A stretch of DNA of 64,000 nucleotides from Pseudomonadota bacterium (lineage in GTDB: Bacteria; Pseudomonadota; Gammaproteobacteria; Halothiobacillales; Halothiobacillaceae), in contig JAJYYE010000003.1 of assembly GCA_021801265.1 (NCBI GenBank), positions 1 through 64,000 of the forward strand, given 5' to 3'. The translations under genes were made by a program, and so were the position numbers. Every line of letters begins with the position of its first letter. Within the stretch, counting starts at the first letter, position 1. This document shows positions 1,513-64,000 of the stretch, in pieces. The notes under the pieces were generated by a model. The model made no database searches. It saw only the letters and a program-made list of their open reading frames with translations, and was not told where the DNA came from.

Positions 1513-2991
1513 TCAAAGAGGCAATCTTTGGTACGTTTGTATTAAATTATTGATTGAATTAGCCAAGTCATCCGTCAAGTCTTGAGAAGCGAACTGCCAA
1601 GTCCAGTTACCTGTCATCGTCCCCGGCGTATTGATTCGACCCTGGGAATCACAACCTAACCAATCTGCCATCGGAATAACCGCTAATTGAGCCACGGAAG
1701 CGAGCGCAGCTGCAATCAGTGCCATAGGCATAGGCTGATCGTAGGAAATTGACAGTTGTTCACTCAGTACCTCGCGCACGCGTTTCCGTGATGCCTCATT
1801 TAATCCCAGCCACCAACCCAAGCTGGTATCGTTATCATGAGTACCGGTATAAACCACCGAGTCCGGTTCATGATTCGCGGGTAAATAGGGATTTTCATCA
1901 TCACTATCAAACGCAAATTGCAAAATCAGCATACCCGGTAAACCAAATCTTTTTCTCAATGCCACCACATCGTCGGTAATCACCCCCAGATCTTCCGCGA
2001 TCACAGGTAAGTGGTTGGAACACTCACGCTGAAGCGCTTCAAGCAAAGCCCCACCCGGCGCGTCAATCCAACGCCCACCAATTGCGGTATCGCATTGGGC
2101 GGGAATCGACCAATAAGCGGCCAAACCCCGAAAATGATCAATTCGCACCCAATCAAAGAGCATGACATGTCGCTTAAATCGCTCACGCCACCAAATAAAT
2201 CCATTTTCCTGCATTTGGGTCCAGTCAAATAATGGGTTACCCCACCGTTGCCCGGTAATAGAAAAATAATCCGGTGGTACACCTGCGACAGCCAATGGCA
2301 AACCCCGATCATCCAATTGAAAGAGCGCCCGATTAGCCCAAACATCAGCAGAATCTCCCGCGATAAAAATAGGCAAATCACCATAAATAAAAATCCCGCG
2401 CTGATGTGCGGCATCGACAATTCTCATCCATTGCCGATGTAATAAATACTGTTCAAAAATGATTTGAAAAATTAAATCAGTATGCTGTTCTGAAAATAGT
2501 TTAAGTGCGGATGGCGACCTATCTCTTAATGCCGGCTGCCATTCAAGCCAAGAGGCGTGATGTTCAACGGATTTAATTGCCATAAACAAAGCATAATCAA
2601 CTAACCAATGTGATTCATTGTGCTCAAATTGTCTAAATTCAAGCAGCAATGACGCTGTCGCCCCAAGGCTCTGCTTTCGCTCGAGTATTGTACATTCAGT
2701 AGCAAAACCCGGATCCTTTTGGAGCACATCATCAGACAGGAAGGCAGGATTGAGTGCGAATGATGAGCTGCATTGGTACGGAGAACCATCCATCAATGGC
2801 GGCCCCAAAGGTAACATTTGCCAAACTGTTAGGCCGCTCTTCTGCATAAAATCCAAAAAATCATCGACAGAAGAACCAAAATCAGCTGTAGGCAAACTAA
2901 ATACAGGAGCGAGAACACCAGCTCGACGCTGAGCACATGGCATTTCAAACTCACATTTTTGATTCGAAACAGGAGCGGAAAAATGAATCAT
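1513..2991 (-). CDS. malQ: 4-alpha-glucanotransferase (amylomaltase, GH77)
   Basis: Transfers alpha-1,4-glucan segments between maltodextrins; acts in the cytoplasm in glycogen and maltodextrin turnover. The 492-residue length is normal for GH77. The expected catalytic residues are visible: Asp285 in RIDHFRG (nucleophile), Glu333 in IAEDLGVI (acid/base) and Asp386 in TGTHDND (transition-state stabiliser). The N-terminal RRAGVLAPVFSLP and SPYQCSSSFALNP motifs are typical of the family. Its ATG overlaps the TGA of the GH57 gene by four bases, so the two are translationally coupled, and it is the last gene of the leftward glgC-GH57-malQ unit. Confidence 0.95.
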   Translation of the reverse strand: MIHFSAPVSNQKCEFEMPCAQRRAGVLAPVFSLPTADFGSSVDDFLDFMQKSGLTVWQMLPLGPPLMDGSPYQCSSSFALNPAFLSDDVLQKDPGFATECTILERKQSLGATASLLLEFRQFEHNESHWLVDYALFMAIKSVEHHASWLEWQPALRDRSPSALKLFSEQHTDLIFQIIFEQYLLHRQWMRIVDAAHQRGIFIYGDLPIFIAGDSADVWANRALFQLDDRGLPLAVAGVPPDYFSITGQRWGNPLFDWTQMQENGFIWWRERFKRHVMLFDWVRIDHFRGLAAYWSIPAQCDTAIGGRWIDAPGGALLEALQRECSNHLPVIAEDLGVITDDVVALRKRFGLPGMLILQFAFDSDDENPYLPANHEPDSVVYTGTHDNDTSLGWWLGLNEASRKRVREVLSEQLSISYDQPMPMALIAAALASVAQLAVIPMADWLGCDSQGRINTPGTMTGNWTWQFASQDLTDDLANSINNLIQTYQRLPL

Positions 2992-4712
2992 TGGCCACGC
3001 CGCATAACACCACCCGCCTCAACTGAGCTATCGTGAACGGACGATAAACAAAGGGGTTGATACAAGGCATCTGGCACCGGGAATTCGATTAACTCGTATA
3101 ATCGGGTCAACTGCAATCGAAACAATTGATCAAAATCACGAACAGCATCACTAGGATTGTAATCACCAAACCACCAAAACCAATCAGAACCCTCACAAAT
3201 CGCCAATTGCTGAAGATTACGATCCAGCATCGCCGCATCCCAGCCACTATTTTTTAAATCTTTTTCTTGTGCCATTTCCTGGGCTTGATCAAATGCAATG
3301 CGCGCAGCAATCAATAAATCCCAAGCGCGATTTTTAGCGTCACTGCCAATCCAAGTTGCTAAATTGCCATAGACCCAACTCCCCGCAACCACATGCTGCA
3401 AAGTCTTGCGTTGTAAAGTTTGGGCAACAACAGTTGAAAATGTCGTTAACTCAATATCAGGATGTTCGCTAAGTTTTTTGTATAAAGCATCTAAAAACCA
3501 AAATCCATTCTCTGGATAAAATTCCCAAGCATTTTCACCATCCAGAATAATTGAAACAACCGCATCCTCACCCCGGCAAGAGTCATGCACACTTTCCAGA
3601 TGGCTAATAAAATTGGTGACTGCATCGTCCGCATGCCATTTTTGATAATCAAAACCAATCAGGTCAGAAAGGCCATCATCTCGAAAAAACAAAGCCGGTG
3701 ATAAATGATCAAATTGCCATACCCGATGCCGGCAAACTTGATCAGTGATATTTTGCTTGGCCAGAGAATTACTGAGAACTTGATCACCACTCGCAACCCA
3801 AGCAAAACCGGCCTTGGCTAACTCGTGAATCGTTTGTTCTGAAATAGCACCTTCAGAAGGCCAGCAGCCTGTGGGATGGACGCCAAAATAACGCTTAAAT
3901 ACAGCCAAACCACGCTGAAGATGCCATTGCACACGTTCTGAACCTCCGGGGTAACTCTCATGGTTGGGTTGGGGTTCATTAGGACATACCTGTTTACCTG
4001 CTTGAACATCCAACAGCAAGGGCATGATCGGATGCGCATACGGTGTCATTGATAACTCAATACGCCCCTGCTCAGCCAATACTTGATAACGAGAGAATAC
4101 ACCACCAATTAATGACCCGATGAGTGTCAATAATTCCAGGCGATCTTGATGATTAAAATGAAAGGATTTATCCGTTAATCTAATAATGAGTGGATTATCT
4201 CTTCGAACGGTTTCACCCATCCAGGCAAGATGATACCAAACAGCCAAATCAGCAATAAGGGCATCACTTAAATAAAGACCGTTATCGGTATTTGAGGAAA
4301 TAGATCTGGCGAGATCAATCAAATCTTGAAATGGTTCAAAACGTCGTATTAATCGCTCCTCATTAGCACGCATGAGAGAACGAACCACATTCATCCGCTG
4401 TAATGGATCAATAATTTTTGATGGATCAATTAATGCAATTAAAAGGATATCACGAAGAATATTACTAGAGCCCCCCTTGACATAACTGCCAATTTGATGA
4501 GCATAATCATCCAATTGCTCCAGCAAAATCGGAACAAAATTAACTACCGCACGTGCTTTAGGATACCTCTCAAGGTGAGCGGCCATATCAACATAATCTT
4601 TAATGGCATGCAAGTACGTCCAAGGCTGCTGATAAACCCCATCTCGTGGGTCACGATATTCTGGCTGGTGCATGTGCCAGCAGAAAACGACAGGTAATTT
4701 CTTACGATTCAT
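2988..4712 (-). CDS. Glycoside hydrolase family 57 (alpha-glucan-active)
   Basis: Cytoplasmic GH57 enzyme of 574 residues; no signal peptide. The N-terminal HMHQPEYR motif is family-typical. The retaining catalytic pair is visible: Glu287 in CWPSEGA (nucleophile) and Asp391 in ILDGENAWE (acid/base). GH57 contains alpha-amylases, amylopullulanases, branching enzymes and 4-alpha-glucanotransferases. The sequence does not decide between them by eye, but position between glgC and malQ argues for a glycogen or maltodextrin substrate. Its ATG overlaps the glgC stop by one base (TAATG) and its own stop overlaps malQ, so three genes form one coupled unit. Confidence 0.9.
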   Translation of the reverse strand: MNRKKLPVVFCWHMHQPEYRDPRDGVYQQPWTYLHAIKDYVDMAAHLERYPKARAVVNFVPILLEQLDDYAHQIGSYVKGGSSNILRDILLIALIDPSKIIDPLQRMNVVRSLMRANEERLIRRFEPFQDLIDLARSISSNTDNGLYLSDALIADLAVWYHLAWMGETVRRDNPLIIRLTDKSFHFNHQDRLELLTLIGSLIGGVFSRYQVLAEQGRIELSMTPYAHPIMPLLLDVQAGKQVCPNEPQPNHESYPGGSERVQWHLQRGLAVFKRYFGVHPTGCWPSEGAISEQTIHELAKAGFAWVASGDQVLSNSLAKQNITDQVCRHRVWQFDHLSPALFFRDDGLSDLIGFDYQKWHADDAVTNFISHLESVHDSCRGEDAVVSIILDGENAWEFYPENGFWFLDALYKKLSEHPDIELTTFSTVVAQTLQRKTLQHVVAGSWVYGNLATWIGSDAKNRAWDLLIAARIAFDQAQEMAQEKDLKNSGWDAAMLDRNLQQLAICEGSDWFWWFGDYNPSDAVRDFDQLFRLQLTRLYELIEFPVPDALYQPLCLSSVHDSSVEAGGVMRRGQ

Positions 4713-5983
4713 TAGCGCACCATATGTAATCGTTGGCCTAACATGTCGGGCGTAACTAAAACTACCCCACCCGGACTAATTTCAAAACGTTGACGATCAA
4801 GCTCTGAGTCAAAACCAATTGTCATGCCTTCTGGTATAACACATCCTTTATCAATTACAGCTTTACGAATTTTTGCGCGCTCATTAATCACCACGTTGGG
4901 CAAAATGACAGAATCCTCAACTGAAGCTTGTTCATTAACCAAGACATTCGAGAATAATAAAGAATGACGAACAAGCGCACCAGAAATGATACAACCACCT
5001 GAAACCATAGAATCGACCGCCATCCCTCGACGGTCTTCATCGTCAAATACGAATTTAGCAGGGGGGAGTTGTTCTTGATGTGTCCATATCGGCCAATCGG
5101 TATCATATAGATTCAAATCCGGCGTTACGCCAATCAATTCGAGATTCGAAGCCCAATAAGAATCGATGGTGCCTACATCACGCCAATACGCTTGCGCACC
5201 AGATTGCACATCACGAAATGGATAAGCAAAGACTTGATAATTTTTAATTACGCGAGGAATGATGTTCTTGCCAAAATCATGATCTGAACTCGGATCATCG
5301 GCATCGTAAATAAGTTGTTCAAATAAAAACTTAGTATTAAAAACATAAATGCCCATTGAGGCAAGCGAAGTTCCCGGACATCCATGAATTTCAGGCGGTT
5401 CATTAGGTTTTTCTAAAAACATATTAACTCGGCCGGCATTTTCGATACCCATCACTCCAAATGAACTCGCCTCAGCAACAGGTACTTCAATACAACCAAT
5501 GGTCAAGTCTGCATTTTTCTCAACGTGATAAGCAATCATCGGCCCATAATCCATTTTGTAGATATGATCCCCCGCGAGAATCAAAATATATTCAGCATTA
5601 TGGGTACGCAGAATATCAATATTTTGATAAACCGCATCTGCCGTTCCGCTATACCAAGATTGTTCATTAATTCGTTGCTGAGCAGGCAATAATTCAACAA
5701 ATTCATCGCGTGCCATTCGATTAGCACCCCAAGCTTGCTGAATATGCTTGATCAATGAATGTGCTTTGTACTGGGTCAAAACTGCAATCCGGCGAACACC
5801 TGAATTCACGCAGTTGGATAACGGAAAATCGATAATTCGGAATTTTCCACCGAAAGGCACAGCAGGCTTGGCGCGCCAATCAGTCAGCTGTTTCAAACGT
5901 GATCCGCGACCTCCCGCTAAAACAAGGGCGAGTGTATCCCGCGTAATTCGACTGACCAATCGTTTAGGGCTTTCAATCAACAT
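4712..5983 (-). CDS. glgC: Glucose-1-phosphate adenylyltransferase
   Basis: Makes ADP-glucose from ATP and glucose-1-phosphate, the committed step of bacterial glycogen synthesis. It has 423 residues, the usual length. The nucleotide-binding [13 protein letters not shown] loop lies near residues 22-34, followed by [21 protein letters not shown]. The C-terminal third has the left-handed beta-helix character seen in [19 protein letters not shown]. The start is an ATG with an AAGGGAAAG ribosome binding site. It heads the leftward glgC-GH57-malQ unit and is divergent from glgB across a 511-base regulatory gap. Confidence 0.97.
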
Positions 5984-6147
5984 AAGTCTTTCCCTTTGAA
6001 TAACATTGCCTTAGGTAACAATAGAACAATAAAAAACATATCCGATGCGCCCATAATCCTATCCTTGCGACCTTCACGTCAAGCATGTGGTTAAAATTAT
6101 TTGCAGCAGTAAGAAAACACGAGGAATGACAGGATTAGTCACACGAT

Positions 6148-6161
6148 TTCGATGAATCGAA
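6148..6161. promoter_or_regulatory. Palindrome in the glgC/glgB divergent region
   Basis: The 511-base gap between the divergent glgC and glgB genes is AT-rich and holds a perfect inverted repeat, TTCGAT-GA-ATCGAA. It lies 165 bases from glgC and 333 bases from glgB. Size and symmetry suit a dimeric regulator, but the motif does not match an operator I recognise. Apart from this and a doubtful 77-codon frame, nothing else in the gap is recognisable. Confidence 0.35.
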
Positions 6162-6239
6162 CGAAAGAATTGTGCGTAAAATCCCACAGATGAGTTGCGG
6201 AGAAATCGGGATTAATTAGCCGATTAGAATTCTTATTAT

Positions 6240-6473
6240 ATGATGATTTATAAAAGAATATCCGTTAAACCCAGATCATATCCCCAAAAAATATTTACAG
6301 ATTCCCTTCAATCAACCCGAGCCCGAGTAGCACAATTACCCTCAAAGTATGGTATACCGCAAGTAGTAAAAAGTCGTGATGAAGTACCCATTAAAAAAAC
6401 AGCGATGGGGCTACCTCTTGCCTCGGCTTTTAACGCAGTGGCGGGCGATATCCGGATCGACTCCGCAAAATAA
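6240..6473 (+). CDS. Doubtful small basic ORF upstream of glgB
   Basis: A 77-codon frame that ends 21 bases before glgB on the same strand. It opens with two adjacent ATGs but has no visible ribosome binding site. The product is Lys/Arg-rich with no signal peptide, no membrane segment and no family I recognise. An equally long frame exists on the opposite strand, which argues against either being real. It may simply be the transcribed leader of glgB. Confidence 0.2.
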   Translation: MMIYKRISVKPRSYPQKIFTDSLQSTRARVAQLPSKYGIPQVVKSRDEVPIKKTAMGLPLASAFNAVAGDIRIDSAK

Positions 6474-6494
6474 TCAATCAAAGGAAGCCAAGAA

Positions 6495-8663
6495 ATGCCT
6501 TTAGATTTCCAAGCGATCATAGAAGCAAGAATGCATGACCCATTTTCTTTGCTGGGCAAGCACGCGTTGGACGATCAAAGAAGTCGGTTTCATACCTATC
6601 ATCCACAGGCGATGCACGTTGCCATTGAAACCGTTCAGGGTGAGTTTTATGAACTAAAACCAGACGCCATGTTTCCTGGTATTTTTTTTGGTGAATTTCC
6701 CGAACAATTACTGCCAACACGACCTCAATTACGGATCCAAACGCATGATGGCCTTGTCTATCGAATCATTGATCCCTACAGCTTTGAGCCCACACTCGGT
6801 GAACTTGATCTCCACCTATTTGCAGAAGGAAAACATTACAATCTTTGGAATATGCTGGGTTCCCACGAAGAAGTCATAGATGACATCAAAGGGGTAAGAT
6901 TTGCAGTGTGGGCCCCTAATGCGTGCAGAGTCAGCGTTGTAGGCGATTTTAATACGTGGGATGGTCGCCGGCACCCTATGCGTAATCGCATCAGCAGCGG
7001 TGTATGGGAATTATTTATCCCAGGAATTTCTGCAGGTGATTTATATAAATTTGAAATTAAGAATAAGGACACACAGACCATCAGTGTGCGAACAGACCCC
7101 TTGGGCCGCAGTTTCGAGCTAAGACCTAATACCGCAGCAAGGGTTATTTCAAACGAAGCGTATCATTGGTCAGATCATCAATGGCTCGAGGGGCGCCGCC
7201 AGCATGATTGGCTTCATTCTGCGACAAGTATTTATGAAGTTCATTTAGGTTCTTGGCGCTCATCGAACAACACATTCCCTACCTACATCGAACTCGCAGA
7301 ACAATTAATTCCTTATGTTCGTGAACGCGGCTTTACGCACATTGAGTTACTCCCCATCACCGAGCACCCTTTTGATGGTTCATGGGGTTATCAAACTACA
7401 GGCTATTTTGCACCCACTTCAAGGTTTGGCACCCCGGAACAATTTAAATATTTTGTTGATAAAGCCCATCAGTCTGGTATCGGAATCATCCTCGATTGGG
7501 TACCGGCGCACTTCCCGAGAGATGAGTTTGCACTGGCGAAATTTGATGGAACGGCACTATACGAACATGAAGATCCACGCCGGGGTGAGCATCGGGATTG
7601 GGGCACGCTGATCTTTAACTACGGACGTAAAGAGGTCAGTAATTTCCTCATCGCGTCAGCACTGTACTGGCTAGAGGAAATGCATCTCGATGGATTAAGA
7701 GTAGATGCAGTCGCCTCGATGCTCTACCTTGATTACTCACGTGAAAACGGCGATTGGTTACCCAATGCGTATGGTGGGCGAGAAAACTTAGAAGCAATCG
7801 ATTTTTTAAGAACACTCAATCACGTTTCGCAAACAAGAAATCCCGGCACATTGATCATAGCGGAAGAGTCAACAGCTTGGCCATTGGTATCGAGGCCACC
7901 TGAAGTTGGTGGTTTGGGATTTTCAATGAAATGGAACATGGGGTGGATGAACGACACGTTAAGATACTTCCAAGAAGATCCTATTAATCGTCAGTATCAC
8001 CATAACAATCTTACCTTCGGACTGCTATATAGCTTTACTGAAAATTTCGTTTTACCATTTTCACATGATGAAGTGGTGCACGGAAAAGGATCGTTACTCA
8101 ACAAAATGCCTGGCGATGAATGGCAGAGGTTCGCAAATTTACGCCTGCTACTAACGTACCAGTACACATATCCCGGGAAAAAATTATTATTCATGGGATG
8201 TGAGTTTGGTCAGGGCAATGAATGGAATCATGAACAACCTTTAGACTGGTGGGTGCTAAAATACCCACTCCATCAAGGTATAAACAGTTTAGCGACAAGC
8301 TTAAACCATATATATAAAAATGAAAAGCCCTTATACCAATATGACTTTTATCACACAGGCTTCGAATGGTGCGATTGCAACGATAGACAAAATTCTGTAA
8401 TTAGTTACTTCAGGCATAGTGACGATGAAACAATTTTGGTTATATTAAACTTCACTCCAGTTCGCCGGGTTTATTATAAAGTCGACACGCCGGCATTTAA
8501 TGACTTTAAAATAATCCTAAATAGTGACTCCAAATGTTTCGGAGGGAGTGATGAAAATTTGGAAATAAAGCACCAAAGACATTCTTTTCATGGCGCAAAA
8601 GATAATTACATTGAATTAAATCTCCCCCCACTGGGGGCAGTTATTATTAAAATAATCCAATAA
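6495..8663 (+). CDS. glgB: 1,4-alpha-glucan branching enzyme
   Basis: Introduces alpha-1,6 branches into glycogen. The 722 residues match the long GlgB form with an extra N-terminal domain (residues ~1-110), a CBM48 domain (~115-215, [22 protein letters not shown]) and a GH13 barrel. Catalytic residues are Asp404 in [10 protein letters not shown] and the Glu pair at 457-458 in IIAEEST; DEVVHGK follows. The ATG has an AAGGAAG site. The last third becomes noticeably richer in A+T than the first. glgA follows after 11 bases. Confidence 0.97.
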
Positions 8664-29780: not shown

Positions 29781-31289
29781 ATGAAAGCAGGATTAGAGCT
29801 ACGTCTTGGGCAAAGTCTGGCGATGACGCCCCAATTGCAGCAATCCATCCGATTGCTGCAACTTTCCACCCTCGAGTTAGCGCTGGAAATTCAGCAGGCA
29901 GTCGACACCAACCCCCTGCTTGAAATTGCAGACACAGATGATTTTAGTGATCGCGATGAGGCTTATGCCGAGACCAGTGATACCGTCATCAGCGTCGATG
30001 CCAATTTTCAGGAAGATCCCAATGCACAATCCGGGGAGGCATTGCTGACTCCGAATAATGAGCTAACCCCCGATGACCCCTTTGCACTTGACACGCAATG
30101 GGAAGATTATTTTGAAGTCGATGGCAGTACTTCATTTAGCGCAGCTGAACATCATCATGATGATTACGATCCTTATGCCACCACCTCAAATGGGGTGGAG
30201 TCTTTGCGAGATCATCTCTTAAGCCAAATTCACCTCACCCATCTCACGCCGCGTGATACTGCCATTGCCACCGCGTTGATTGAAGCGATTGACCCTACCG
30301 GTTACCTCGCCGACTCACTGGAAGAAATTCAAACCATGTTGGTGGTTGAATGGCCCGATATCGCGTTTGAAGACATCAATACGGTATTGCATCTCGTTCA
30401 ATCACTCGATCCCATTGGTATTGGTGCACGCGATCTCAATGAATGCTTGAGCCTGCAATTGCGGCAAAAGCCTGCCCATACGCCGCTTAGAGACGTTGCC
30501 ATTCAAATTTGTGAACGCAATTTAATTGAAGCCATCGCACAACGCGAATACAACCAGGTTTTGCGGATACTGGGGATCGACCAAGCCACGCTAGAAGGGG
30601 CCTTGCTGTTACTCCAAGGGTTAAACCCCAGACCCGGCGCCAATGTAGGTGCTATAGCAGCTGACTATCTCATTCCCGATGTGCTGGTTGGTCTGCGCAA
30701 TGGCGTATGGCAGGTTGATCTCAATCCGGAAATCGCGCCCAAGCTGCGGGTCAATCAAACCTATGCGCGCATGATTAACCGCAGCTCACGCGGCGAAGAT
30801 GCCAGCTACATTCGCAGCCATCTCCAAGAAGCGCGCTGGTTTATCAAAAGCCTGCGCAGCCGGAATGAAACCCTGCTCAACGTGGCGCGTTCCATCGTGG
30901 CACGGCAAACGGCATTTTTTGAACAGGGAGAAACCGGCATGCGCCCTTTGGTTTTGCGCGAGATTGCCGAAGAACTTGAATTACACGAATCCACCGTGAG
31001 CCGGGTGACCACGCAAAAATATATGCTGACACCCCGTGGGACCTTTGAATTCAAATATTTCTTTTCGAGTCATGTCGGCACGAGTGACGGCGGTGAATGT
31101 TCAGCCACCGCAATTCGTGCCATGATCAAACAGCTGGTCAGCGAAGAAAATCCGCGCAAACCCCTATCGGATGCCAAAATTGCCGACCTGTTAATCGAAC
31201 AAGGTATTGATGTTGCCCGGCGAACGATCGCCAAGTACCGTGAGGCAATGGGCATTGCCTCTTCCACCGACCGCAAGCGCCTGATTTAA
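29781..31289 (+). CDS. rpoN: RNA polymerase sigma-54 factor
   Basis: Alternative sigma factor that recognises -24/-12 promoters and requires AAA+ activators. It has 502 residues. The Gln/Leu-rich activator-interacting region is at residues 1-50 (LRLGQSLAMTPQLQQSIRLLQ), an acidic linker follows to ~135, then the core-binding domain. The DNA-binding region ends in the RpoN box ARRTIAKYRE. It heads rpoN-hpf-ptsN-hprK-rapZ. A candidate sigma-54 promoter and an activator gene are present elsewhere in this window (58.8 and 63.5 kb). Confidence 0.97.
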   Translation: MKAGLELRLGQSLAMTPQLQQSIRLLQLSTLELALEIQQAVDTNPLLEIADTDDFSDRDEAYAETSDTVISVDANFQEDPNAQSGEALLTPNNELTPDDPFALDTQWEDYFEVDGSTSFSAAEHHHDDYDPYATTSNGVESLRDHLLSQIHLTHLTPRDTAIATALIEAIDPTGYLADSLEEIQTMLVVEWPDIAFEDINTVLHLVQSLDPIGIGARDLNECLSLQLRQKPAHTPLRDVAIQICERNLIEAIAQREYNQVLRILGIDQATLEGALLLLQGLNPRPGANVGAIAADYLIPDVLVGLRNGVWQVDLNPEIAPKLRVNQTYARMINRSSRGEDASYIRSHLQEARWFIKSLRSRNETLLNVARSIVARQTAFFEQGETGMRPLVLREIAEELELHESTVSRVTTQKYMLTPRGTFEFKYFFSSHVGTSDGGECSATAIRAMIKQLVSEENPRKPLSDAKIADLLIEQGIDVARRTIAKYREAMGIASSTDRKRLI

Positions 31290-57986: not shown

Positions 57987-58430
57987 CTACCAAGATTTAT
58001 AGGGTAAAAACTTTCCATTCATTGTCACGACCACCCGATCCCCTGCCGGATTGGGTTCTTTATCAATGTGCATGCTGAAATCAATGGCGCTCATAATCCC
58101 GTCGCCAAATTTTTCGTGAATCAGTGTCTTCATGGTCGGGCCGTACACCCCGACAATTTCATACAGGCGATAAATCAGCGGATCGGTTGGCACAGCTTTC
58201 TCCCAGCTTTTTGTCGGGCAGGCCATGATGGCAGCCAACGCTTCGGGCGGCAGTTCAAGCAGGGTAACCAGTTTTTGTGCGGGTTCGGCCTTAAGGCTGT
58301 TCATGCCGAGGCAGGCAGATACCGAAAACACCGGCGAGAGGCCGATCCCGGCGGCGATACCCTCCCAGGTCAGGCCCATTGCGGCTTTTTTTTCCAGAAT
58401 CAGGGCGGTCAGTGTTTCTTTCATCATCAT
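57987..58430 (-). CDS. cynS: Cyanase
   Basis: Converts cyanate and bicarbonate to ammonia and carbon dioxide. It has 147 residues from the ATG at 58430, which has a GGAG site. The catalytic triad is complete: Arg88 and Glu91 in YRLYEIV and Ser114 in GIMSAIDFSM, with the same spacing as E. coli Arg96/Glu99/Ser122. No cynT carbonic anhydrase or cyanate transporter is adjacent. It is divergent from the OsmC-led operon, with a 424-base shared regulatory gap. Confidence 0.96.
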   Translation of the reverse strand: MMMKETLTALILEKKAAMGLTWEGIAAGIGLSPVFSVSACLGMNSLKAEPAQKLVTLLELPPEALAAIMACPTKSWEKAVPTDPLIYRLYEIVGVYGPTMKTLIHEKFGDGIMSAIDFSMHIDKEPNPAGDRVVVTMNGKFLPYKSW

Positions 58431-58671: not shown

Positions 58672-58708
58672 ACATTGACGACAATGTTCAATAAAACCGG
58701 ACATTGTC
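58672..58708 (+). promoter_or_regulatory. Candidate upstream activator sites
   Basis: A perfect palindrome, ACATTG-ACGA-CAATGT (58672-58687), is followed 12 bases on by the related GACATTGTC (58700-58708). Their centres are about 145 and 120 bases before the start site predicted from the -24/-12 promoter, the normal range for enhancer-binding proteins. They do not match the NifA site TGT-N10-ACA. Confidence 0.5.
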
Positions 58709-58796: not shown

Positions 58797-58813
58797 TTGG
58801 CACGGAGTCTGCA
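58797..58813 (+). promoter_or_regulatory. Sigma-54 (-24/-12) promoter of the OsmC-led operon
   Basis: TTGGCACG-GAGT-CTGCA matches the consensus YTGGCACG-N4-TTGCW at every defined position except the first T of TTGC. GG at 58799-58800 and GC at 58811-58812 are separated by exactly ten bases. The predicted start is near 58824, about 30 bases before the ATG at 58855, leaving room for the GAGG ribosome binding site. rpoN is in this window at 29.8 kb. Confidence 0.85.
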
Positions 58814-58854
58814 ATTGTTTGGTTGCAACAACAACCCTGCTGAGGAAAATTTTC

Positions 58855-59418
58855 ATGAGCACTGAATTTCAAGAACCCATTGCACCTGCCTGTGTCCGCC
58901 AGGCCTTGCGTGAAATCAACAAAGCCGGTCTCAATGCACTGGGCGAAAAAGGTAAGGCTAATCCCGATGCTGTCGTCACCCTAAAAGCCAAAACCGTGTG
59001 CGAAGGCCAGTTTCGTAATCTGACCTACATTCGCGCGTTGGCTCCCGTCGTCGTCGATGAACCGCCGCACCTGCTTGGCGAAGATACTGCGCCGAACCCA
59101 TCCGAAGCGCTGTTGGCCGCACTGGGCGCGTGCCTCGCGGTTGGTGTGCATGCCAACGCAACGTCACGTGGCATCCAGTTGACCAAACTCGAATTGCATA
59201 TTGAAGGAGATATTAATGTCACCGCTGTTTGGGGCACCGGGGATCTGGACGAGAATAAACCGTTGGGATTTACCGCCATCCGCGTCAAGTTTGATGTGGA
59301 AACACTCTCCCCGCTTTTAACGGCTGAGCTCGATGAACTCCTGCAACATGCGAAGAAGTGGTCACCCGTGGCCAATACGATGATGCGCCCGGTCGCTTTG
59401 GATTGCGCCTTGTTGTAA
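58855..59418 (+). CDS. OsmC-family protein lacking the second redox Cys
   Basis: A 187-residue OsmC/Ohr-fold protein. The first catalytic Cys is present (Cys93 in LGACLAVGVHANA), but the second position, normally CP in the C-terminal part, reads Ser170-Pro171 (KKWSPVAN), so the standard two-Cys peroxidase cycle cannot operate. Four other Cys lie elsewhere (13, 49, 184 among them). The ATG at 58855 has a GAGG site; a TTG at 58819 would lie upstream of the predicted transcript start. It is first in the sigma-54-type operon. Confidence 0.88.
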   Translation: MSTEFQEPIAPACVRQALREINKAGLNALGEKGKANPDAVVTLKAKTVCEGQFRNLTYIRALAPVVVDEPPHLLGEDTAPNPSEALLAALGACLAVGVHANATSRGIQLTKLELHIEGDINVTAVWGTGDLDENKPLGFTAIRVKFDVETLSPLLTAELDELLQHAKKWSPVANTMMRPVALDCALL

Positions 59419-59482
59419 GCCCACACCAATCAACGCGCGCGGTTCATCCTGTGAGCGATTGAACCTATTCGAGGATTTTCTC

Positions 59483-60616
59483 ATGAAAACACGCACACCC
59501 ATGGCGTCTGCTACCCCGCCCATCTCGCCAGATTCTTTGATTTTGAACCAGGTACGCGATGTGGTTCGTGATCGACTGGCGCCGCTCACCGTCAAAATCG
59601 ATGAAGGTTACTATCCGGCCGAGGTGCTCCGCGCCCTGGGTGAAGCCGGTGCCTTCCGCCAGCACCTGGCCTCGCACAATGGCCGCAATACCTTTGATGT
59701 ACAAACCGCGCTGGCCGCCATGGATGTCGTTTCGCAGGAATGTATGTCCACAGGTTTTATGGTGTGGGCGCAGGATGTGGTGTGCTGGTACATCGAGATG
59801 TCGAACAACGACCATCTCAAGCAAACCGTTTTACCGAAACTCGCCAGTGGCAAGGTGCTGGGCGGCACCGCGCTGTCCAATCCGATGAAGTATCTGGCCG
59901 GCATCGAACCCTTGCTATTAACCGCCACCGAAACCGATGACGGATTCATGTTAAATGGCACACTGCCCTGGGTGTCCAACCTCGGATCCGGTCACTGGTT
60001 TGGCTCCATCTTCAAGGTGGTGGGCGATAATCCCCGCGATGTCATGGCTTTGGTGAATACCGACTGGGCGGGTCTGGAACTCAGGCAATTGGCCAAATTT
60101 TGCGGCATGGAAGGAACGGGTACCTACGCGATGTTTTTCAAGGATGTGTTCGTACCCAAAAACCATGTGCTGGGCGACCCGCTCATTCCTTATCTTAAAA
60201 AGATGAAAGCCGGATTTGTTTTGCTGCAAACCGGCATGGCCACAGGGTTAATTGAAGGCTGCATTGAGCTTTGCGAGGCTGCAGAACTCCAATTCGGCCA
60301 CGTGAACTGCTATCTCGACGATCGCCCGGATGAACTGCGCGAAGCGCTTGACGATACGCGGGAATTGATCGGCGAATTGTGCACTGATGTATTCAACCCC
60401 AAACCAGAATTCATGCGTCGGGTCTTAGAAGCGAGGTTACTCGGCTCCGAATTATCCCTGCGGGCGGCCAGCTCGGCGATGTTGCACACCGGTGCCAATG
60501 GCTATCTGCACGATGCCCCGGCACAACGCAAGCTGCGTGAAGCCTATTTCGTGGCCATTGTCACCCCGGCCATTAAGCACCTGCGCAAAGAGTTGGATAC
60601 CTTGGCAACCGCTTGA
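59483..60616 (+). CDS. Acyl-CoA-dehydrogenase-fold flavoprotein
   Basis: A 377-residue member of the acyl-CoA dehydrogenase superfamily: helical N-terminal domain, central beta domain (GGTALSNPM; GTLPWVSNLGSGHWFGSIF) and C-terminal helical bundle. The C-terminal region where classical enzymes carry the catalytic Glu (YEGT) reads REAYFVAIVTPAIKHL, without a Glu there. Related non-classical members (SfnB/DszC type) are flavin monooxygenases of sulfur compounds; that comparison is suggestive only. The ATG has a GAGG site. It lies between the OsmC-like gene and a rubredoxin-reductase gene. Confidence 0.85.
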   Translation: MKTRTPMASATPPISPDSLILNQVRDVVRDRLAPLTVKIDEGYYPAEVLRALGEAGAFRQHLASHNGRNTFDVQTALAAMDVVSQECMSTGFMVWAQDVVCWYIEMSNNDHLKQTVLPKLASGKVLGGTALSNPMKYLAGIEPLLLTATETDDGFMLNGTLPWVSNLGSGHWFGSIFKVVGDNPRDVMALVNTDWAGLELRQLAKFCGMEGTGTYAMFFKDVFVPKNHVLGDPLIPYLKKMKAGFVLLQTGMATGLIEGCIELCEAAELQFGHVNCYLDDRPDELREALDDTRELIGELCTDVFNPKPEFMRRVLEARLLGSELSLRAASSAMLHTGANGYLHDAPAQRKLREAYFVAIVTPAIKHLRKELDTLATA

Positions 60617-60650
60617 TGAACTCAGGGCACTTAACGAGGAAATCTCGACC

Positions 60651-62060
60651 ATGAACACGCCCCGCTGGATCTGTACGGTATGCGGCTGGATTTATAACGA
60701 AGTCGAAGGCGACCCCGATAGCGGAATTGCACCCGGAACGCGTTTCGAAGACATCCCGGCAAATTGGTCCTGTCCATTGTGCGGGGTCACCAAAGCCGAT
60801 TTCATCACGCTAGAGGCATACGCCGCCCAACGCGCATCCAGCGGCCCAAAAACTCGCCCGCGCCGCGCTCGTGGTCAAATCGGCGGTGAAGATACCGTGG
60901 TCATTATCGGTGGCGGCATTGCAGGATGGACGGTCGCCGAACGGCTACGCGAACGGGATCCCGAACGCCCCATCACACTCATTACCGCCGACGATGGCTG
61001 CATCTATCCCAAACCGGCGCTATCCATGGCCATTGGCCAAGGGCGCAGCCCGGATGATCTCATCGAACAATCAGGCACGGAAAAAGCCGCAGCGTTAGGG
61101 GTTACCCTGCAAGCAAATACCCGCGTGATGGGCATCAAACCCATCAACAAGCGCCTAACCACGACCAAAGGCAATGTGAAATATGGCCAATTGGTGCTGG
61201 CATTGGGTGCGAGCCAACGCCGCCATAGCTTTGCAGGCGATGCGGCAGACGACATCCTGCGCATCAACGATCTGACGAGCTACCGGCATTTACGCTCACT
61301 ACTGGAAGGAGAATCACGCCATATTGTTTTGATCGGTGCCGGATTGATTGGTGTGGAATTGGCCGAAGATATGACCGCCGGTGGACATCGAGTCACCCTG
61401 CTGGATGTGGGCACGCAACTTCTTGGCCGACTGGCACCGCCTTCCATTGCCCAGCAGTTACTGACCGCAATGACACCAAAAGGGGTATCGTTCTGCCCCG
61501 GCGTGAGCTTGGCAGCGCTTGATCGCGAGGCCAATCGCTATCGCGCCATGCTCACCAATGGCGCGGCACTCGCCACCGACATCGTTATTTCTGCGATGGG
61601 GCTGATGCCAAATATTGAATTGGCCAAACACGCCGGCTTGCAGGTCGGTCGCGGGATTATCGCTCAGGCAAGTGATCTTCGCACCAGTGATCAGGATATC
61701 TTCGCGGTGGGTGACTGCGCCGAGATTGATGGCCGCAGTTATTACTACATTGACCCCATTCGCCGCCAAGCCGAGACAGTTGCAGCGAGTCTGTGCGGTG
61801 AACATCATCCTTTTGAGCGTCATCCGATTTCGATCCGAGTTAAAACCCCCAGTTTGGCACTGCATTTATGCCCACCCGATCAATCCGTTGCGGATTTTGG
61901 TGATTGGCACTTTCACGCAGGCGAAGGCATCAATAGCCGAGTGGATTTCCTGGCACATCAACGGCTGGCCGGTTACGCGTTATCCGGAAGCCATACCCAA
62001 GAAAGTGAACTACTGAACAAGGTCTTGATTTCACAGCTAAACCCACCCCCTCAAAACTGA
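60651..62060 (+). CDS. Rubredoxin fused to NAD(P)H-dependent rubredoxin reductase
   Basis: A 469-residue fusion. Rubredoxin occupies residues 1-55 with iron ligands Cys8, Cys11, Cys41 and Cys44. After a basic linker, the FAD/NAD reductase begins at VVIIGGGIAGWTVAERL; the NAD-binding IVLIGAGLIGVELAEDM and the FAD-binding IFAVGDCAEI follow. The fusion delivers electrons from NAD(P)H to an oxygenase, oxidase or peroxide reductase. The ATG at 60651 has an AGGA site, and its acyl-CoA-dehydrogenase-fold neighbour is a candidate partner. Confidence 0.94.
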   Translation: MNTPRWICTVCGWIYNEVEGDPDSGIAPGTRFEDIPANWSCPLCGVTKADFITLEAYAAQRASSGPKTRPRRARGQIGGEDTVVIIGGGIAGWTVAERLRERDPERPITLITADDGCIYPKPALSMAIGQGRSPDDLIEQSGTEKAAALGVTLQANTRVMGIKPINKRLTTTKGNVKYGQLVLALGASQRRHSFAGDAADDILRINDLTSYRHLRSLLEGESRHIVLIGAGLIGVELAEDMTAGGHRVTLLDVGTQLLGRLAPPSIAQQLLTAMTPKGVSFCPGVSLAALDREANRYRAMLTNGAALATDIVISAMGLMPNIELAKHAGLQVGRGIIAQASDLRTSDQDIFAVGDCAEIDGRSYYYIDPIRRQAETVAASLCGEHHPFERHPISIRVKTPSLALHLCPPDQSVADFGDWHFHAGEGINSRVDFLAHQRLAGYALSGSHTQESELLNKVLISQLNPPPQN

Positions 62061-62092
62061 CTTCCCGCCCCACCACCCCAAGGAGATACGCC

Positions 62093-62950
62093 ATGAGCTC
62101 TGTACTATTATCCGCTGCTGAACTCAACACGCTAATGCACAAAGAACCCATCGTAGTGATTGATGCCCGAAATCCGGCGGCCTATGCCGACGGTCATATT
62201 CCAGGCGCAGTCAACATTCACGATATTTTTACGTTTCTGGCCACGTCAACCCCTGAAGGCCTGAAAGCATTAAACACCCAGTTTGCAGAAACATTTGGGA
62301 ATAGCGGACTATCCGGCAAAGAAACCGCCGTAATTTATGAAGATGCCATGAATACCGGATTTGGCATGTCATGCCGGGGATACTTTTTACTCAGTTATAT
62401 GGGCTATCCCAAAATCAAGATTCTTCATGGCGGTTACCAAGCGTGGCTAGCAGAATCGCTGCCCATTACCGCCGACGTTGTGCGGCCCGAACCCGCCACG
62501 TTTACACTCTCGGACACCGGAACAGACTTCATGATCGGCAAAGATGAAGTGCTGGCCGCCCTCGGCAATGATGAAATTGTATTACTGGATGTCCGGGACA
62601 TCGACGAATGGATCGCCACCAGCTCATCGCCTTATGGCAAAGATTTTTGCCCCCGCAAGGGACGGTTGCCCGGCGCCCGATGGATTGAGTGGTACCGCCT
62701 GATGAAACCGGGTGCTGTCCCCCTGTTCAAAGCACCAGAAGAAATTCTGGCTGAATGCGATACCGTCGGTATCCGCAAGGATACCCCGGTCTATCTGTAC
62801 TGCTTCAAAGGCGCGCGCGCTTCCAACACGTTCGTGGCACTGAAATCGGCCGGTATCGAGAATGTCAAACTCTACTTCGGTTCCTGGAACGAGTGGTCGC
62901 GCGATCCTTCCCTGCCCATCGAAGAAGGCTTACCCTACGCCTCAATTTGA
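62093..62950 (+). CDS. Two-domain sulfurtransferase (rhodanese type)
   Basis: A 285-residue tandem rhodanese protein. The first domain (VVIDARNPAAYADGHIPGAVNI) is structural. The second carries the active Cys237 in the loop YCFKGARAS and the preceding LLDVRDIDEW. No signal peptide is present, so it acts in the cytoplasm. Substrate could be thiosulfate, 3-mercaptopyruvate or a persulfide; the loop CFKGAR has the six-residue length of rhodaneses. A strong AAGGAG precedes the ATG. It lies 32 bases after the reductase. Confidence 0.93.
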   Translation: MSSVLLSAAELNTLMHKEPIVVIDARNPAAYADGHIPGAVNIHDIFTFLATSTPEGLKALNTQFAETFGNSGLSGKETAVIYEDAMNTGFGMSCRGYFLLSYMGYPKIKILHGGYQAWLAESLPITADVVRPEPATFTLSDTGTDFMIGKDEVLAALGNDEIVLLDVRDIDEWIATSSSPYGKDFCPRKGRLPGARWIEWYRLMKPGAVPLFKAPEEILAECDTVGIRKDTPVYLYCFKGARASNTFVALKSAGIENVKLYFGSWNEWSRDPSLPIEEGLPYASI

Positions 62951-63014
62951 GCCGGGCGATTAATCGACGTAGCATGTACCGATTCCGCATCGAATATCAT
63001 TTATTTGAGTTTTC

Positions 63015-63047
63015 ATGTGCGGTGATCGGGGGATAATAACCGCACGT
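63015..63047 (+). terminator. Hairpin between the sulfurtransferase and CopD-like genes
   Basis: GTGCGGT and ACCGCAC (63017-63023, 63039-63045) form a seven-pair stem, extendable to nine with a G-T pair, and a 15-base loop. There is no T-run. It may partially end the operon or set the level of the last gene. Confidence 0.4.
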
Positions 63048-63080
63048 AACTCCATCACCACTTAACAAGATAGCCCCACA

Positions 63081-63524
63081 ATGAACAACATCCTGATCAC
63101 TGTGCACAGCCTTGCTGCAACCCTCTGGATCGGCGGCATTTTTTTCGCCTTCATGATCCTGCGACCGATCAGCGCCCAGCTTGAACCACCCACCCGGCTT
63201 CGCCTCTGGGTTAACGTTTTCCGCGGCTTTTTCCCTTGGGTTTGGGGATTTATTGCCCTGCTGGTGGCGAGTGGCTATGCCGATTTGATCGTGCGTTTCG
63301 GCCTCAGCGGGTTTTATCTGCCTCGTCTTTTGGCGATGCAGATCATTGGCTGGATCATGATCCTGTTATTTGCCTATCTGCACACTATCCTGCTGCGTCG
63401 ATTTGCCGCCGCCGTGGACGCGGCATATTGGACAGAGGCCGCAACCGTCATGGTGCCCATCCGCCGCATCATGGCGACCAACCTGTTCCTGGGTTTGCTG
63501 CTTATCCCGATTGGCATAGCCTGA
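63081..63524 (+). CDS. CopD-like four-helix membrane protein
   Basis: A 147-residue inner-membrane protein with four helices. The N-terminal HSLAATLWIGGIFFAFMILRP motif, with a His in the first helix, is shared by CopD-type and related heme- or copper-associated membrane proteins. The specific function is unknown. It is the last rightward gene of the cluster, 130 bases after the sulfurtransferase with a hairpin between, and converges on the activator gene. Confidence 0.8.
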   Translation: MNNILITVHSLAATLWIGGIFFAFMILRPISAQLEPPTRLRLWVNVFRGFFPWVWGFIALLVASGYADLIVRFGLSGFYLPRLLAMQIIGWIMILLFAYLHTILLRRFAAAVDAAYWTEAATVMVPIRRIMATNLFLGLLLIPIGIA

Positions 63525-63541
63525 ACCTGGCACGACCCCGG

Positions 63542-64000
63542 CTATTGAGCGAGCAAACCCAGTTTTTCCAGCCGATAGCGAAACTGCCGTGGCGTCATGC
63601 CCAGGGATGCGGCCGCACGGGTTTTATTGCCGCGCGTGCTCCGGAGCGCTTCCCGTAAACTTGCAATTTCATCAGCGCTTACCCAACCATATCCGCGCAG
63701 AGGAATATCTGCGTGGCGTGGTGGAGAGACTCCAGACAGGGCCATGAGGGGCACAGCGACTTCCTGCGCCTGGGCCGTGCCTGCCTCAAGGTGAGTCCCG
63801 ATATGCGATTCATGCTGCAAAATTAACGTAATGTCATTGATCGCAATTTGTCGATCTTGAGCGATCAGAACTGAACGTTTAATAACATTTTCCAATTGAC
63901 GAATATTGCCCGGCCAATTATAGGCCTCGAGTCGCTCCAATACGCCGACGCCGAACATGGTATTGCGATCGAATTCCTGATTGGCCGTTTGCAAAAAATG
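63542..64000 (-). CDS. Sigma-54-dependent activator, C-terminal part (runs off the window)
   Basis: The frame is open through the window edge; reading begins with HFLQTANQEF, typical of the end of the AAA+ domain, so the real start lies beyond 64000. RLEAYNWPGNIRQLENVIKRSVLIA is the classic enhancer-binding-protein segment. After a ~50-residue linker, a Fis-type helix-turn-helix ends the protein (NKTRAAASLGMTPRQFRYRLEKLGL), resembling the NifA group. The sensory N-terminus cannot be seen. It converges on the CopD-like gene and is the obvious candidate regulator of the -24/-12 promoter at 58.8 kb. Confidence 0.9.
   Translation of the reverse strand, partial: HFLQTANQEFDRNTMFGVGVLERLEAYNWPGNIRQLENVIKRSVLIAQDRQIAINDITLILQHESHIGTHLEAGTAQAQEVAVPLMALSGVSPPRHADIPLRGYGWVSADEIASLREALRSTRGNKTRAAASLGMTPRQFRYRLEKLGLLAQ

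Follow-up and report, generated by a model that had tools for sequence, protein, structure and literature searches.

The window analysed here (64,000 nucleotides, positions 1 to 64,000 of contig JAJYYE010000003.1 from a gammaproteobacterium of the Halothiobacillaceae) ends in an apparent sigma-54-controlled operon encoding an OsmC-like protein, a protein with the acyl-CoA dehydrogenase (ACAD) fold, a rubredoxin-reductase fusion and a two-domain rhodanese. Judged by homology, this redox gene set sits between a cyanase gene, cynS, and a cyanate-type uptake system; the cyanase and the NrtA/CynA-type transporter are features absent from an earlier, sequence-only reading of this DNA. We propose that the OsmC-ACAD-reductase-rhodanese block is an addition to a cyn-type regulon, and that the enlarged regulon imports a small anion, most likely thiocyanate, oxidises it to cyanate using the ACAD-fold protein, and passes the cyanate to cyanase. 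Taken whole, we regard this statement as evenly balanced between right and wrong. Within it, the block probably makes cyanate, or another substrate of cyanase, for use as nitrogen, while thiocyanate is a tentative choice of substrate. The sequence-only reading had suggested a dedicated pathway for an organosulfur, persulfide or cyanide-related compound. Its cyanide-related guess has gained support, but the cyanase and NrtA/CynA-type neighbours do not point to the other two as such.

In the proposed pathway, the activator would sense a cyanate-like ligand under nitrogen limitation and turn on import of the small anion. The ACAD-fold protein would then oxidise the anion with O2 to cyanate, with electrons passing from NAD(P)H to rubredoxin (or another reductase in other lineages) and from there, we infer, to the ACAD-fold protein. 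The sulfur would be taken as a persulfide by the single-cysteine OsmC protein, joined by the rhodanese in loci that have one. Finally, cyanase would convert cyanate and bicarbonate into ammonia and CO2. In outline, SCN-, O2 and NADH would give OCN- and bound sulfur.

To our knowledge, no gene has been assigned to the conversion of thiocyanate or cyanide to cyanate in most aerobes outside the specialised sulfur oxidisers. With a conserved gene set linked to both cyanase and anion importers, gene deletions and enzyme assays can address this question directly, and may uncover a nitrogen source for marine, soil and phototrophic bacteria. Two protein subfamilies that the plasmid records examined label simply 'OsmC family protein' and 'acyl-CoA dehydrogenase' would gain functions as well.

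Conservation of the gene block

Upstream of the OsmC gene, TGGCACGGAGTCTGCA matches 11 of the 12 positions of what we take to be the sigma-54 -24/-12 consensus. It has the standard GG/GC spacing, in agreement with the sequence-only reading, and a gap of 41 base pairs (bp) separates it from the OsmC ATG (58855). Sites scoring at least 11 are held by 1.4% of random 360-bp windows from 80 related loci. The OsmC-like, ACAD-fold, rubredoxin-reductase fusion and two-domain rhodanese genes read downstream of this promoter are borne out by Pfam matches, and the convergent gene closing the operon has the GAF, Sigma54_activat and HTH_8 domains of a sigma-54 activator (Table 1).

Thirty genomes were searched, including the window's own, and 19 of them belong to the same family. 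ACAD orthologues (at least 66% identity) are present in 11 of the 19 family genomes. Matches of any kind at an expectation value of 0.001 occur in 18 of the 30, the seven beyond the orthologues being distant (at most 31% identical). Orthologues of OsmC (at least 76%) and of the activator (at least 69%) are found in the same 11 genomes, and cyanase is found in those 11 plus one more. A congener carries a cyanase gene (G002:C70:12661-13101) and no orthologue of OsmC, ACAD or the activator. In all ten other family loci cynS, OsmC, ACAD and reductase genes occur together, accompanied in the fetched stretches, some of which end early, by rhodanese in eight, the activator in seven, and CopD and the transporter in six each (CopD in 7 of 11 with the window counted).

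A -24/-12 site scoring 10 or 11 precedes OsmC in all 11 family genomes. Its distance upstream, measured from the start of the site, is 57-95 bp in ten genomes and 1,660 bp in the eleventh, where OsmC is interrupted. The earlier view of a sigma-54-type operon and adjacent activator is upheld, and the genes are conserved as a set together with the promoter. The interrupted gene belongs to a congener (L027; G009:C1:2381026-2383169), in which matches to OsmC residues 22-187 and 1-29 lie about 1.5 kb apart; the -24/-12 site lies beyond this gap, and the ACAD, reductase, rhodanese and activator genes remain. The transporter is likewise preceded by a site scoring 10-12 in all seven family loci examined. 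In four of these (L029, L032-L034) the site falls at or after the assigned start of the open reading frame (ORF), which places the true start downstream.

The OsmC-ACAD-reductase(-rhodanese) block is also conserved more widely and recurs across many unrelated bacteria. A scan of named genomes matched at least 595 stretches, 570 of them encoding ACAD relatives, and the best 80 by ACAD similarity were kept. OsmC is present in 77 of these 80 loci, and in 75 it immediately precedes ACAD on the same strand; of the three remaining loci, L067 and L112 are cut off at that end and L038 has none within the 1.6 kb available. The other genes are a binding protein (64 loci), a reductase-like gene (59), cynS (48), the activator (41), rhodanese (34) and CopD (4). 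Among the 48 well-flanked loci, which extend 8 kb or more to either side, OsmC occurs in 48, the ATP-binding cassette (ABC) binding protein in 46, a reductase in 40 (by identity of the rubredoxin-reductase type in 32), cynS in 35, the activator in 28, rhodanese in 22 and CopD in 1.

The hosts include Guyparkeria sp. SCN-R1 (module present, without rhodanese), Thioalkalivibrio, Thiomicrospira, Hydrogenovibrio, Halomonas, Hydrogenophaga, Azospirillum, Roseibium and several cyanobacteria. Another reductase takes the place of the rubredoxin-reductase type in several alphaproteobacterial loci; the one case checked against Pfam has no rubredoxin domain, and no reductase was seen in the 10 cyanobacterial loci. 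In Caballeronia SBC2 the activator, OsmC, ACAD, reductase, CynABD-like genes and cynS stand in one row. Five plasmid records were opened of 562 matched, and OsmC, ACAD and transporter genes are present in every one. Two (Marinobacter, Acetobacter) have annotated cynS and sigma-54 activator genes, and two (a Rhodobacteraceae strain, Pseudosulfitobacter) an annotated rhodanese gene. The Methylocystis plasmid has the transporter, OsmC and ACAD, with no cyanase, activator, reductase or rhodanese annotated nearby. Near ACAD, clustering also revealed a small protein in 12 loci (L050:7897-8277 and relatives), the one checked giving a match to DUF302. A TetR-like regulator is found in 24 loci by the same means (L086:5147-5764 confirmed by Pfam), one of which, L061, has the activator as well.

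Layout, promoters and a candidate activator site

The activator gene spans C4:63542-65182, in contig coordinates, so only its C-terminal part lies inside the window; its best NCBIfam score is to the NifA model, under the cut-off. In a separately fetched stretch running beyond the window (L007) the activator occupies 1543-3183 on the reverse strand and the transporter 3500-6588 on the forward strand. A single sigma-54 factor match was found in the genome, and it lies in this window (domain 30804-31280); the genome also has five further exact TGGCACN5TTGCW sites, on contigs C2, C4 (90536), C7 and C8 (two). The CopD-like gene stands where the sequence-only reading had put it, but its Pfam identity falls below the cut-off and its membership of the pathway did not survive; found in only 4 of the 80 wider loci, it was ruled out as a core member. 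Positions are approximate, because each gene was taken to begin where its longest ORF begins.

Table 1. Features of the operon and its flanks; positions marked C4 are contig coordinates
Feature	Position	Strand	Evidence and remarks
Cyanase (cynS), divergent from the operon	57987..58430	-	PF02560 2.1e-37; TIGR00673 above cut-off
Candidate activator-binding palindrome ACATTG-ACGA-CAATGT	58672..58687		Holds TTGACGACAA (58675-58684), one mismatch from TTGTNNACAA
-24/-12 (sigma-54) promoter TGGCACGGAGTCTGCA	58798..58813	+	GG 58799-58800, GC 58811-58812
OsmC-like protein	58855..59418	+	PF02566 2.3e-21; single invariant cysteine C93
ACAD-fold protein	59483..60616	+	PF02771 4.6e-13; Pfam middle domain under cut-off; no Glu at either usual catalytic position
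Rubredoxin + NAD(P)H:rubredoxin reductase fusion	60651..62060	+	PF00301, PF07992 (Pyr_redox_2), PF18113 (Rbx_binding)
Two-domain rhodanese	62093..62950	+	PF00581; CFKGARAS in second domain
CopD-like small membrane protein, peripheral	63081..63524	+	PF05425 under cut-off, 29.9 vs 32.1 bits
Sigma-54 activator (GAF-AAA-Fis HTH)	63542..64000 in window, whole gene to C4:65182	-	Pfam GAF, Sigma54_activat, HTH_8
Second -24/-12 site TGGCACGTTGTTTGCT, before transporter	C4:65439-65454		12/12 consensus positions
ABC transporter genes (binding protein, permease, ATPase), divergent from activator	~C4:65499-68587	+	Beyond the window

Sites matching at least 11 of 12 consensus positions precede a cluster gene in 24 of the 41 activator-bearing loci (random mean 3.2, maximum 9, 200 simulations) and in 12 of the 39 loci without an activator (random mean 1.0, maximum 4, 200 simulations). 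Both groups exceed random windows, though the contrast between them is weaker than hoped.

We identified the candidate activator site TTGTNNACAA by looking for spaced inverted repeats (3 to 5 letters) in 50 regions, each the 200 bp upstream of a -24/-12 site scoring at least 10, taken from activator-bearing loci plus two of this genome. Allowing one mismatch, it is found in 29 of the 50 regions, against rates of 4.8% in random windows and 5.8% in shuffled sequences, an enrichment that is no independent test because it was scored on the regions it came from. Of 34 copies, 19 fall in the bins from -100 to -61. Copies lie upstream of OsmC, transporter, cynS (L043, L049) and rhodanese (L066) promoters, the clear cases being rhodanese in L066 (exact, -91) and cynS in L043 (exact, -80) and L049 (one mismatch, -104). 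Their presence there links rhodanese and cynS to the shared regulation. In L043 and L045, copies assigned to these two genes may be shared with the divergent OsmC gene. Those of the window are degenerate (58675-58684, C4:65411 and C4:65421), the latter two lying unusually near the promoter. Exact copies occur upstream in 9 of the 41 activator-bearing loci versus 3 of the 39 others, a weak contrast, and two of the three activator-less loci (L037, L047) end before the position of the activator in their relatives. The ten-letter element TTGACGACAA, shared by both intergenic regions, was rejected as the activator site as its exact form occurs in no other family locus; with its flanking bases it has 5 matches at up to one mismatch in the whole genome, compared with 3 for a backward control.

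A related activator (42% identity) is encoded on a wastewater Klebsiella plasmid (L116; NZ_CP056226.1 26537-46072), where it adjoins nitrilase-type and nitrile hydratase genes and two sets of ABC transporter genes. By virtue of these neighbours, the activator family may govern several carbon-nitrogen compounds.

Proposed chemistry and its rivals

The ACAD-fold protein is modelled with high confidence (predicted local distance difference test (pLDDT) 95) and superposes on solved ACADs with a template modelling score of about 0.8 at about 20% identity. In the three module rows shown of an alignment to an isovaleryl-type ACAD, a gap stands opposite the helix-G glutamate and a residue other than Glu occupies the C-terminal position; these two are the positions we take to be catalytic. 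With Glu at neither, an ordinary acyl-CoA dehydrogenase is unlikely and a flavin oxygenase fits better. All 51 sequences have T361 and P362, and the motif VAIVTPA is almost invariant. All NCBIfam scores are far under their cut-offs, including those of the flavin oxygenase models of this fold, and the fold comparison did not separate oxygenases from dehydrogenases within the ACAD superfamily.

The OsmC protein (model pLDDT 88; nearest solved fold 2opl) has C93 in 42 of 42 sequences. A second cysteine is not conserved: S170-P171 is found in all 42, with Cys once at position 169 and twice at 167. The nearest solved relatives of the rhodanese are mostly thiosulfate sulfurtransferases, and its best NCBIfam model, mercaptopyruvate sulfurtransferase, scores under the cut-off. 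OsmC relatives are thiol peroxidases, rhodaneses act on persulfides, and cyanate carbamoylates thiols. The module could accordingly protect against cyanate stress, with OsmC, rubredoxin reductase and rhodanese repairing thiol or peroxide damage and no upstream substrate, and the membership of its OsmC and rhodanese in thiol-peroxidase-related and persulfide-acting families favours this. We consider it very unlikely, since the 42 OsmC sequences show no conserved second cysteine, and since it leaves unexplained both the ACAD-fold gene and the Methylocystis cluster of transporter, OsmC and ACAD genes. With about as much reserve as for the choice of thiocyanate itself, we suggest that the OsmC/ACAD-fold pair may constitute a new route, of the oxygenase type, by which thiocyanate or a similar pseudohalide becomes cyanate. 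This route would be separate from thiocyanate dehydrogenase and hydrolase, with the single-cysteine OsmC as sulfur acceptor, and would serve as a nitrogen-scavenging module across proteobacteria and cyanobacteria.

Cyanate as the likely product is indicated by the CynF-like arrangement of the activator, with cynS divergent upstream and the NrtA/CynA-type transporter divergent from the activator gene. The window's binding protein has a twin-arginine translocation (Tat) signal and belongs to the Pfam NMT1_2 family; its nearest solved relatives are nitrate- and bicarbonate-transport proteins. Across the 80 loci the binding proteins form two groups of 36 genes each, 47-73% (type a) and 25-30% (type b) identical to the window's, and G(F/Y)xPIT and HPCC occur in all six inspected (three per type). 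Six Thioalkalivibrio loci carry both, a CynABD-type a beside cynS and an NrtA-class b beside OsmC-ACAD-reductase, with the activator between them, an arrangement suggestive of a second small anion other than cyanate. In the simplest reading, type b would import a cyanate-like anion and the block would convert it to cyanate. Thiocyanate is the best fit, since it resembles cyanate as an anion, has sulfur for the rhodanese, and would yield cyanate.

Cyanide is a second candidate. Rhodanese and the ACAD-fold oxygenase would then turn cyanide into thiocyanate or directly into cyanate for cyanase, with the transporter serving cyanate only. Older literature describes an NADH-dependent cyanide oxygenase activity, cyanase adjoins the block, and rhodanese is found in 34 of the 80 loci, in one of which (L066) it has a -24/-12 site of its own plus an exact palindrome. 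Yet the second NrtA-class importer beside OsmC would be needless, because HCN crosses membranes, and the frequent absence of rhodanese from well-flanked loci also argues against cyanide assimilation, which we judge unlikely.

An equally improbable substrate is some other small carbon-nitrogen anion or organic nitrogen or sulfur compound (nitrile, thiocarbamate, sulfonate), whose oxidation would release cyanate or carbamate. Among NCBIfam models the binding proteins score highest with SsuA (sulfonates), well under the cut-off, their Pfam family is broad, and the L116 activator adjoins nitrilase and nitrile hydratase genes. Against this stand the nitrate- and bicarbonate-transport proteins that are the closest relatives of known structure to the window's binding protein, and the linkage to cyanase, which favours a simple cyanate precursor.

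Several observations weigh against oxidation of thiocyanate to cyanate within an enlarged cyn regulon. Among the 48 well-flanked loci, cynS is unseen in 13 and rhodanese in 26, and 39 of the 80 loci show no activator, 23 of these having a TetR-like gene by sequence clustering. The palindrome is missing from 21 of the 50 upstream regions and from 7 of the 11 family OsmC promoters, Guyparkeria included (present in the window, L025, L028 and L030), and the promoter scan found no -24/-12 site belonging to the window's cynS. The substrate is not pinned down by any known enzyme of this sequence type, and oxygenase chemistry is argued only from missing residues and the linkage to a reductase.

Comparison with known systems

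The module's ACAD-fold protein shares its fold, at about 20% identity to solved members, with the ACAD superfamily and its oxygenase branch (DszC, HsaA, SfnB), from which it differs in having no catalytic Glu and in its invariant T361 and P362. Its OsmC protein similarly shares fold and one conserved cysteine with the OsmC/Ohr peroxidases, GSU2788 (2opl) and the NF041052 OsmC-related (seleno)protein family, but has no conserved second cysteine and scores under the NF041052 cut-off.

Thiocyanate dehydrogenase (TcDH), a periplasmic copper enzyme, is unrelated to the ACAD-fold protein. If our proposal is true, the TcDH 'cyanate pathway' of Thioalkalivibrio and Guyparkeria SCN-R1 has the same product, cyanate, and the T. 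thiocyanoxidans TcDH cluster also has a sigma-54-type regulator (PMC5744179, PMC6504805). The main texts of these two papers do not mention OsmC, acyl-CoA or rubredoxin. For thiocyanate hydrolase, no PF02979 (NHase-alpha-type) match was found in the genome, nor in 14 control genomes. A search of the literature, partial in coverage and including few subscription papers, found no description of an OsmC-ACAD block with cyanase.

The closest parallel in gene kind and arrangement is the cynFABDS system of Pseudomonas pseudoalcaligenes CECT5344, in which, according to its published description, cynABDS requires CynF, cyanate induces and ammonium represses (PMC6627978). The terms OsmC, acyl-CoA, rubredoxin and rhodanese do not occur in that main text. 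Common to both are a sigma-54 activator divergent from a cyanate-type transporter, a -24/-12 site before the transporter, and cyanase. Unlike in cynFABDS, where cynABDS forms one transcription unit (PMC6627978), cynS here lies apart from the transporter on the opposite strand, across a block of OsmC, ACAD-fold, rubredoxin-reductase and rhodanese genes that separates it from the activator.

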